In this document: in pieces, positions 21,022-39,187 of the stretch | Layout of the letters: every line of letters begins with the position of its first letter | Position numbering within the stretch: the stretch's first letter is position 1 | NCBI GenBank assembly: GCA_013140995.1 | Contig: JABFRX010000270.1 | Coordinates: 1-39,187, forward strand | Source: Alphaproteobacteria bacterium | GTDB taxonomy: Bacteria > Pseudomonadota > Alphaproteobacteria > Micropepsales > Micropepsaceae | DNA length: 39,187 nucleotides | Reading direction: 5' to 3' | Notes under the pieces: generated by a model | The model's database searches: none | What the model was told of the DNA's origin: nothing | The model's input: the letters and a program-made list of their open reading frames with translations, nothing else | Translations under genes and position numbers: made by a program

Positions 21022-21288
21022 ATGAACGAACGGGACGACAAGGCCGATTGGGCGGCGGCGCGGCAACTCGACCTCACAGGCCTCAAGTGCCCGATGCCGT
21101 CGCTGATGACGAAAAAGGCTTTGCGGGGGATGGGCCCAAACGAGCTGTTGGCGGTTACCGTGACCGACCCGCTGGCACCGCTCGACCTTCATCACTTGTG
21201 CCAGAGCCACGGGCATTCAGTGGTGGCCGAGGGCCAAAACGACTCCGGGGCCCGCCGGCTCTTGATTTGCCGCGGGCCCCGGAGCTGA
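21022..21288 (+). CDS. TusA-family sulfurtransferase
   Basis: The 88-residue protein carries the TusA signature LDLTGLKCPMPSLMTKKAL, with the catalytic Cys in the Cys-Pro-x-Pro turn at about residue 23, and the typical beta-alpha-beta-alpha-beta-beta length. TusA proteins pass persulfide sulfur to tRNA thiolation, molybdenum cofactor or other sulfur pathways. The start is the ATG at 21022, which gives a normal family length; earlier starts overlap the divergent promoter. A strong GC-rich hairpin overlaps its 3' end. Confidence 0.9.
   Translation: MNERDDKADWAAARQLDLTGLKCPMPSLMTKKALRGMGPNELLAVTVTDPLAPLDLHHLCQSHGHSVVAEGQNDSGARRLLICRGPRS
21243..21284 (+). terminator. GC-rich hairpin at the end of the TusA gene
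   Basis: CTCCGGGGCCCGC at 21243-21255 pairs perfectly with GCGGGCCCCGGAG at 21272-21284 across a 16-nt loop. The stem lies inside the last codons and ends 1 nt before the TGA at 21286. There is no clear U-tract after it, so it may end transcription weakly, protect the 3' end, or block read-through from the opposing small genes. Confidence 0.45.
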
Positions 21289-36919: not shown

Positions 36920-37665
36920 GCCCAGCCGCCGTCGATGACGAAGCTTTGGGCGGTTGCCATGCGGCTGTCGTCGGCGGCGAGCCACAAGACCATGCGCGCA
37001 ACGTCGGGCGGGTAGAGCTTTTCCTTCAAGCACTGCCTCGCCATCAATTCTGTTTCGCTTTCGGGCGTGAGCCAGAGTTTGACCTGACGCTCGGTCATGA
37101 TCCAGCCGGGGATGACGCTGTTCACGCGGATGCCGTCGGCACCCACGTCGCGGGCGAGGCCGCGGGTGAGGCCTTCGACCGCTGCCTTTGCAGTCACGTA
37201 AGCGGGCATGCCGCCGAGTGCGAGGCGCCAGCTGATCGAGCCGACGTTGACGATGGAGCCGCGCTTGCGATTGCGCATCGCGGGCAGCACGGCTTGGGCG
37301 GCGAAGAATTGGTGGCGCAGGTTCGTCGCCATGCGGTCGTCCCAATAGGCGGGCGTGACCTCTTCTATCGTGTGGCGGTCGTCGCGCGCGGCGTTGTTCA
37401 CCAGCGCGAGCGTGGGGCCGAAAGCGAGTTGCAACTTCGCGATAGCGGCGCGCAGCGCGTCGATGTCGCGCAGGTCGCAGTGCGTGAATGCGGCGCCGTA
37501 ATTCTTTTCGATCGCTCTGCCCGCTTCGACGTCAACGTCGATGAGGCCGACATACGCGCCTTGTGCTGCGAAGTGCTCCACGATCGAAGCGCCGATGCCC
37601 GAGGCGCCGCCGGTCACGATGACGGCTTCGTTCTTCAGGCTTGGATAGGTGGCGAATTTTGTCAT
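36916..37665 (-). CDS. SDR-family oxidoreductase
   Basis: The 249-residue protein is a classical short-chain dehydrogenase: TGGASGIG at 18-25, Asp43 after strand 2 (LIDVDV, suggesting NAD), NNA at 90-92, catalytic Ser143, Tyr156 and Lys160 (YVTAK) and the closing FVIDGGWA. It resembles sugar or galactose/arabinose dehydrogenases. The ATG at 37665 overlaps the hutI stop as ATGA, so it is translated with hutI. In many hut loci that position holds hutG or hutH; its role here is not known. Confidence 0.9.
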   Translation of the reverse strand: MTKFATYPSLKNEAVIVTGGASGIGASIVEHFAAQGAYVGLIDVDVEAGRAIEKNYGAAFTHCDLRDIDALRAAIAKLQLAFGPTLALVNNAARDDRHTIEEVTPAYWDDRMATNLRHQFFAAQAVLPAMRNRKRGSIVNVGSISWRLALGGMPAYVTAKAAVEGLTRGLARDVGADGIRVNSVIPGWIMTERQVKLWLTPESETELMARQCLKEKLYPPDVARMVLWLAADDSRMATAQSFVIDGGWA

Positions 37666-38909
37666 GGCACTTCTTGGTTTGCGGCGGCGAGGGCGGCGCT
37701 GCAGGCGATGGCGGACGGGCTGATGTTGCCGCCGATCCAATAGCTGAGCTCGGCCGGATGATCGATGGGCCAGACGGCGTAGTCGGCAGCTTTGCCGACT
37801 TCGAGCGTTCCCGTTTCGGCGCTCAAGCCCAGTGCTCGGGCGGCGTTGCGGGTGACGCCTGCCAGCGCCTCCTCCGGCGTCAGGCCGAACAGCGTGCACG
37901 CCATCGCCATCGTCGTGTGCAGCGAGACGTTCGGAGACGTGCCGGGATTGCAGTCGGTCGCGATGGCAATCGGCACCTTGGCGCGGCGGAATGCTTCGAC
38001 GGGCGGCTTTCTTGTTTCGCGCAGTACGAAGAACGCGCCGGGCAGTAGGACGGCAATCGTGCCTGCCTTCGCCATCGCGGCGACGCCGGACGCGTCTGTA
38101 TATTCGAGGTGATCGGCGGAGAGCGCGCCGAACTTGGCGGCGAGCGCTGCGCCGTTCGTGTCGGAGAGTTGGTCGGCGTGTAGTTTGACCTTGAGGCCCA
38201 GCGCAGTTGCTGCCGAGAAGAACTGCGCGGTTTCGTCTACTGTGAACGCGATACCCTCGCAAAACGCATCCACTGCGTCGGCGAGGCCTTCGGCGGCGAC
38301 AGCGCGCAGCACAGGGCCGCTCATTTCCGCTACATAGGCCACGCGCTTGTTTGCGTATTCGGGCGGCAGCGCGTGGAGGCCTAGATAGGTCGTTGTTACG
38401 CGCATCGCGGATGCCTCTCCCAGCCGGCGGGCAACGCGTAGCAGCCGAAGCTCCGTTTCGAGGTCGAGGCCGTAACCCGACTTGATTTCGATCGTCGTGA
38501 CACCTTGGCCGAGCAACGCGGTCAGGCGCGCTTGCGCTTGCTTGAATAGCGTGTCGTCATCGGCGGCGCGTGTGGCGCGGACCGTCGACATGATGCCGCC
38601 GCCGGCTTTGGAGATCGCTTCGTAACTGACGCCCTTCAGGCGCTGCTCGAATTCAGGTGCGCGGTTGCCGGCAAAGACGAGGTGCGTGTGGCAGTCGATG
38701 AGGCCCGGCGTGATCCACTGTTTGTTTGCCTCTACTACGCGGGTGGCGAGTGCGTCGGGCTTGCCGGGCAAGTTCCGCATCGGGCCTGCGAAGACTATGC
38801 GGCCGCCGCTATCGGCAAAAGCGGCGTTCTCGATCGCGCCGTACGCGGTTGTCCCCTCGCGCATCGTGGCGAGGCGGGCATTGATCCACAGATGGTCCCA
38901 TTTCGACAT
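37662..38909 (-). CDS. hutI: Imidazolonepropionase
   Basis: The 415-residue enzyme hydrolyses 4-imidazolone-5-propanoate to N-formimidoyl-L-glutamate, the third step of histidine degradation. The amidohydrolase metal site is visible as His74 and His76 (DCHTHLVFAGNR), His244 (KLHADQLS), His267 (SADHLEY) and Asp319 (ATDCNPG). GGGIMSTVRATR and KSGYGLDLETE are HutI-specific. A GGAG ribosome site is very close to the ATG and borders the dyad at 38914. It is divergent from hutF, which takes the product. Confidence 0.95.
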   Translation of the reverse strand: MSKWDHLWINARLATMREGTTAYGAIENAAFADSGGRIVFAGPMRNLPGKPDALATRVVEANKQWITPGLIDCHTHLVFAGNRAPEFEQRLKGVSYEAISKAGGGIMSTVRATRAADDDTLFKQAQARLTALLGQGVTTIEIKSGYGLDLETELRLLRVARRLGEASAMRVTTTYLGLHALPPEYANKRVAYVAEMSGPVLRAVAAEGLADAVDAFCEGIAFTVDETAQFFSAATALGLKVKLHADQLSDTNGAALAAKFGALSADHLEYTDASGVAAMAKAGTIAVLLPGAFFVLRETRKPPVEAFRRAKVPIAIATDCNPGTSPNVSLHTTMAMACTLFGLTPEEALAGVTRNAARALGLSAETGTLEVGKAADYAVWPIDHPAELSYWIGGNISPSAIACSAALAAANQEVP

Positions 38910-38913
38910 CGCT

Positions 38914-38949
38914 CCACTTTGTCATGGTCCGCTACCCATGACAAAGTGG
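38914..38949. promoter_or_regulatory. 36-bp dyad between divergent hutI and hutF
   Basis: CCACTTTGTCATGG at 38914-38927 is the perfect inverted repeat of CCATGACAAAGTGG at 38936-38949, with an 8-bp centre. It fills most of the 53-bp gap between the two start codons. It could be an operator, or a hairpin placed at the start of either transcript. Confidence 0.65.
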
Positions 38950-38962
38950 GGGCGGAGGACAC

Positions 38963-39187
38963 ATGCAGCATTACTTTGCCGACCATGCCCTGCTGCCCGA
39001 GGGCGTTCGTAGCGGCGTTCGCATCGCCGTCGCGGACGGTCTGATTCGCGCCGTGGAGGTGGCCTCGCCGACCGAGAGCGATCTGCCGATCCGGGGGCTC
39101 GTTCTGCCGGGGATGGCGAATGTGCATTCCCATGCGTTTCAGCGGGCGATGGCGGGGCTTGCGGAATGGGACGCGGGGGGCAAGGAC
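38963..39187 (+). CDS. hutF: Formimidoylglutamate deiminase, N-terminal part
   Basis: The frame gives 75 residues before the window ends. MQHYFADHALLPEGV and LPGMANVHSHAFQRAMAGL match HutF, with His55 and His57 the first metal ligands of this amidohydrolase. HutF converts N-formimidoylglutamate to N-formylglutamate and ammonia, the route used by many pseudomonads and alphaproteobacteria in place of the direct formiminoglutamase. GGAGG lies four bases before the ATG. Confidence 0.93.
   Translation, partial: MQHYFADHALLPEGVRSGVRIAVADGLIRAVEVASPTESDLPIRGLVLPGMANVHSHAFQRAMAGLAEWDAGGKD

Follow-up and report, generated by a model that had tools for sequence, protein, structure and literature searches.

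The perfect dyad lying between hutI and hutF in the window (the whole 39,187-nucleotide stretch of DNA analyzed here) is very probably a degraded copy of a palindromic repeat interspersed through the genomes of the genus, a TGTC-tagged REP of the CGTC super-family. We found nothing to suggest that it arose to regulate histidine genes, and it is most likely a passive, nonautonomous repeat. The dyad is real but likely ordinary: a worn repeat copy, probably passive and possibly co-opted. Reading it as a repeat guards against annotating the remnant as an operator of histidine genes.

Results

The geometry described in an earlier note on this DNA was confirmed: two 14-bp arms, 100% complementary, and the 8-nt loop between them occupy 36 bp of the 53-bp interval (38910-38962) that separates the start codons of hutI and hutF (Table 1). 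The identity of hutI is given by NCBIfam TIGR01224 (449 bits; cut-off, 298). The best NCBIfam match of the 75-amino-acid hutF fragment is TIGR02022 at 75 bits, a score that falls short of the full-length cut-off as the contig breaks off within the gene; the ortholog in a relative (L007) clears it, with 525 bits against 413. The dyad is the longest perfect-arm palindrome with a loop of up to 30 nt in the whole window. In a first-order Markov simulation, 2 of 40 equally long windows yielded an arm of 14 bp, so its standing as the window-wide maximum is only borderline, but a chance palindrome would land in one particular 53-bp gap far less often. Another inverted repeat in the window, at 21243-21284, is GC-rich, with perfect arms of 13 bp around a 16-nt loop, and is possibly a terminator hairpin.

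Table 1. Features in and around the hutI-hutF gap of the window
Feature	Position	Strand	Remark
hutI, imidazolonepropionase	37662..38909	-	ATG at 38909, 4 nt from dyad
Dyad, 14 + 8 + 14	38914..38949	none	
Left arm, CCACTTTGTCATGG	38914-38927		
Left flank, CCACTT	38914..38919	+	Symmetric with 38944-38949
Core of probable decayed repeat copy, TGTCATGG-TCCGCTAC-CCATGACA, 24 bp	38920..38943	none	
Exact family end, TGTCATGGTCCGC, 13 bp	38920..38932	+	Pattern TGTCATGGTCNGC dispersed in genus
Right arm, CCATGACAAAGTGG	38936-38949		
Right flank, AAGTGG	38944..38949	+	
GGAGG, likely hutF ribosome-binding site	38954..38958	+	4 nt from hutF ATG
hutF, formimidoylglutamate deiminase, cut by contig end	38963..39187	+	ATG at 38963, 13 nt from dyad

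The dyad is not peculiar to hut, as its end is dispersed through the genus: TGTCATGGTC-N-GC occurs at 124 sites in the 11 genomes, and in every one of them, compared with 1 site for the reversed control. Some of these 124 TGTCATGGTCNGC sites resemble ordinary coding sequence. A unit consensus was drawn from the 97 of 123 ends that passed an element filter, which itself favors element-like sequence; the search pattern itself dictates its 13 positions, so that only the bases after them are independent evidence. The intact unit reads TGTC-ATGGTCCGC-GAAG-GCGGACCA(C/T)-CCA, followed by CGACTT. Its TGTC tag is set by the search pattern, the free evidence for it being the partner end of most elements. 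The stem, TGGTCCGC/GCGGACCA, is 8 bp long (9 with an outer A-T pair where the base is T) and encloses the loop GAAG, and the CCA tail follows the stem at 75 to 87% per base (97 ends).

A covariance model built from 35 aligned units gave at least 136 matches at E <= 0.01 in the 11 genomes, a lower bound because 150 candidates per genome were scored. The listed minimum per genome was 45 in G006, 30 in G002, 16 in G003, 13 in G010, 11 in G004, and 8 in G008, and copy number was low in 5 of the 11 genomes (4 matches each in G000, the window's own genome, and G005; 2 each in G001 and G009; 1 in G007). Complete elements assembled from fetched loci (n = 57) comprised 10 of 24 to 30 bp, 3 of 66 to 68 bp, 32 of 84 to 93 bp, and 12 longer ones, two of which (L107 and L108) have doubtful right ends. 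The commonest architectures were inverted dimers of 84 to 93 bp and a 30-bp collapsed form, which occurs with its loop in either orientation (L130 versus L150, L158, on the plus strand). By rough ORF scoring, 52 of the 57 elements lie between called genes (31 tandem, 13 divergent, of which 5 are hut copies including the window's, and 8 convergent), 4 overlap a call, and 1 is at an edge. The family is therefore multicopy and intergenic as well as dimeric, and since its elements usually lie no more than tens of bases from gene ends, a gap filled by a repeat is typical of it. A second repeat type, TTTCACGCCAAGACGCCAAGACGCAAAG-like, was seen inside or beside several units (L131, L132, and L139).

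A link to a transposase was sought through the Y1_Tnp class, which gave 25 matches in 10 of the 11 genus genomes; only one of them, on contig C367 of G006 at a distance of about 1.5 kb, comes within 2 kb of any repeat end listed. As judged by this class, the family is not flanked by a transposase gene. Rfam, at gathering score, gave no match in eight loci, including the one that holds the window's hut gap (L035). Our literature searches found no paper on the genus's repeat; we do not claim that none exists.

The window copy carries the family ends and is orthologous to intact copies, but it is not itself an intact unit (8- to 9-bp stem-loop, loop of 4 to 5, CCA tail), as its inner stem-loop (GGTCCGC/GCGGACC) and CCA tail are gone. 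Its core is 24 bp long compared with 30 bp for the usual collapsed form. With the repeat-unit model it scores 12.8 bits (E 0.28); the only higher-scoring match in the window, at 13.9 bits, looks like a chance one. The copy is not among the model matches in its own genome. Because the inner stem is gone and the model score is weak, we call it a remnant rather than a full member, a status that rests on its exact ends and its orthology. Within its own genome it is also the sole match to the two-ended pattern with a gap of 4 to 34 bp, which counts against a repeat there; this result is outweighed by the one-ended pattern across the genus and by the hut gaps of relatives. A search of the same genome for ACTTTGTCATGGTC with up to 2 mismatches gave 31 sites compared with 19 for the reversed control, only 3 of them with 0 or 1 mismatch, and is weak when taken alone.

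The outer 6-bp symmetry of the window copy, CCACTT/AAGTGG, is better than is usual for the flanks of the family; a CCCACTT-type flank also adjoins the repeat in L006 and L150. Across the 57 elements, 3.21 of 8 outer-flank positions were complementary compared with 2.68 in shuffled pairings (P = 0.0006). With one element per site (43 of the 57, after dropping 14 rows: the window, four hut orthologs, seven orthologous duplicates, L107, and L108), the values were 3.19 and 2.70 (P = 0.006), and without the remaining hut site they were 3.10 and 2.67 (P = 0.017). The idea of palindromic insertion targets was dropped, as the excess lies mostly in the two bases adjoining the core. Hairpin-templated mutation may be the source of the extra symmetry in the window's flanks.

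A search for HutI in 61 genomes gave a match of any strength in 38, and the hutI-hutF gap could be read in 8 of the 11 genus genomes; the exceptions were G010 (contig end), G007 (hutI start missing), and G008 (weak matches only). All eight keep the divergent pair. The earlier note had tied its reading to the presence of the dyad in close relatives with this gene arrangement, and the outcome is mixed: both arms are present in six gaps, one arm remains in G005, and G009 has no dyad. The two-armed elements range from 24 to 265 bp, comprising the 24-bp core of the window's genome, elements of 30 bp (G001) and 68 bp (G003), inverted dimers of 86 bp with hairpin-forming halves (G004 and G006), and a 265-bp form (G002). 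The left side of the G006 element, CCCACTTTGTCATGGTCCGC, stands in the same place with nearly the window's letters. In these elements, the two 8-bp core ends stand 8 to 249 bp apart. The note had also suggested that relatives would tell a protein site, by strict base conservation, from an RNA structure, by compensatory changes; the gaps show no strict conservation of a site and no clean compensation, and their conserved bases are those common to the dispersed family. The gaps of G002 (L009/L156) and G005 (L007) hold further inverted-repeat inserts, of a CACAATGACACAATG type and a CACCAAG type, so the hut gap collects small repeats.

Discussion

On a hutI tree, two-armed copies fall on both sides of the deepest split in the genus (support values, 99/98 and 96/96, with some weak inner forks), so that in the simplest history the repeat inserted early, G009 later lost it, and G005 kept half; repeated insertion at one point may be an alternative. 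From this spread, we infer that an inverted dimer of the repeat would already have stood between hutI and hutF when the genus began to diversify. In the window's lineage, it would then have collapsed to a short form that kept both outer ends and lost the inner stem-loop. Slippage could easily explain such a collapse, as the dimer carries GGTCCGC...GCGGACC twice, and the product would be TGTCATGGTCCGC(loop)GCGGACCATGACA, a single hairpin with a tag at each end that corresponds to the 30-bp form. Loss of about 6 bp more from the inner stem would yield the window copy.

Persistence in six of eight gaps could reflect selection. However, comparing fetched loci by BLAST uncovered several further repeat sites that two or three genomes of the genus have in common (among them L096/L109/L116, L099/L176, L134/L114, L144/L178, and L161/L126), so retention at hut is not special. 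At L169/L117 and L160/L127, as in the hut gap of G000-G006, the position is kept with an interior of a different type; the pairs L158/L121 and L153/L101 are not shared elements, as their repeat-like sites fall at different places. One tentative and rather doubtful reading is that REP sites act as long-lived sockets, whose outer TGTCATGG ends stay fixed through speciation while their interiors are repeatedly swapped to the current type of the species, in which case CGTC repeats would exchange interiors by an end-directed process. Such exchange, if real, would take place despite these repeats being thought to be transposase-less. A single REP site followed through eight related genomes offers a series for asking how CGTC-tagged repeats, for which no mobilizing enzyme is known, change over time.

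Any effect of the dyad on hut expression is hypothetical. The strong hairpin proposed in the earlier note stands: the predicted hairpins on the two strands reach -22.3 and -23.8 kcal/mol, values not equaled by any of 200 shuffles. Also in line with the note, no match to a sigma-70-type promoter was found in 38700-39187. Any leader including the remnant would carry the hairpin. Since the hairpin ends 4 nt from the hutI start codon, such a leader should hinder initiation there. For hutF, the GGAGG motif lies past the hairpin, and a longer predicted plus-strand fold, in which 38909-38915 pairs with 38949-38955, takes up its first two bases. The repeat could thus have been co-opted, acting as a hairpin in the leader of hutI, hutF, or both, through these two routes, or supplying promoter sequence. 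The fold energies, the reach into GGAGG, the missing separate promoter, and the long retention of the element in the genus are consistent with this idea. Nevertheless, we consider co-option unlikely, as the pairing into GGAGG would need transcription to begin within hutI, repeat sites with no connection to hut have likewise been kept in more than one genome, and one of the eight gaps has lost the dyad.

HutC operators of proteobacterial hut genes are palindromes upstream of hut genes, and a perfectly symmetric site between two divergent hut genes, with both arms in most readable gaps, is where an operator for a regulator binding between two divergent promoters might be expected. The earlier note saw no likeness to a HutC site, and the protein search agrees: a HutC-type (UTRA domain) protein was found in none of the 11 genus genomes, whereas the whole search of 61 genomes turned one up in 14, and it also scored in 8 of the 14 controls. 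HutC was therefore rejected as the binding protein and is very unlikely to be the regulator here. With the same ends at many unrelated loci, arm spacing that differs so widely among relatives, and the dyad gone from G009, an operator for a hut regulator is highly improbable. In another genus of the family (G033 and G025), a partly palindromic stretch, ATGCCTAGACATG, lies upstream of hutI (L018, 2705-2717; L019, 2687-2699); it is possibly an operator, although both genomes lack a UTRA protein. A palindrome unrelated to the repeat, arisen by chance or made perfect through hairpin-templated mutation, would suit the borderline simulations and the weak model score of the window copy, but it is scarcely credible given the exact 13-bp family end and the orthologous full dimers at the same point, and we set chance aside because the dispersed family and these orthologous copies exist.

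Measured against known systems, the dyad differs from HutC operators (PMC5343134) in that the genus has no UTRA protein and the sequence of the dyad is a dispersed repeat. GTAG REPs and REPINs with RAYT transposases are likewise short palindromic units, found in inverted pairs and between genes (Di Nocera et al. 2013; PMC3733652); the genus repeat instead has the tag TGTC and the single Y1_Tnp match near a listed end. The closest likeness is to the CGTC-tagged REPs, which according to the same paper occur mainly in alphaproteobacteria, often with TGTC as the tag, and have a stem of 8 to 9 bp starting with A-T pairs, a loop of 4 to 5, and a CCA tail; they form head-to-head dimers with variable spacers, lie between genes, and lack a dedicated transposase, and in one case dimers had lost the spacer and adjacent bases. 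A CGTC-type pattern searched across the class matched 34 of 385 genomes, including one match in the window's own genome, which has a classical-looking unit, GTCATGGCCGGGCTTGACCCGGCCACCCACG, with no control match among the matches listed. On the features given in PMC3733652, the family of the genus differs in its TGGTCCGC/GCGGACCA stem, its inner CGACTT, and its common 30-bp collapsed forms, and the window copy differs as a remnant without the inner stem-loop, but the family agrees with CGTC REPs in tag, stem, loop, tail, dimers, intergenic placement, and, as judged by the Y1_Tnp class, lack of a flanking transposase.
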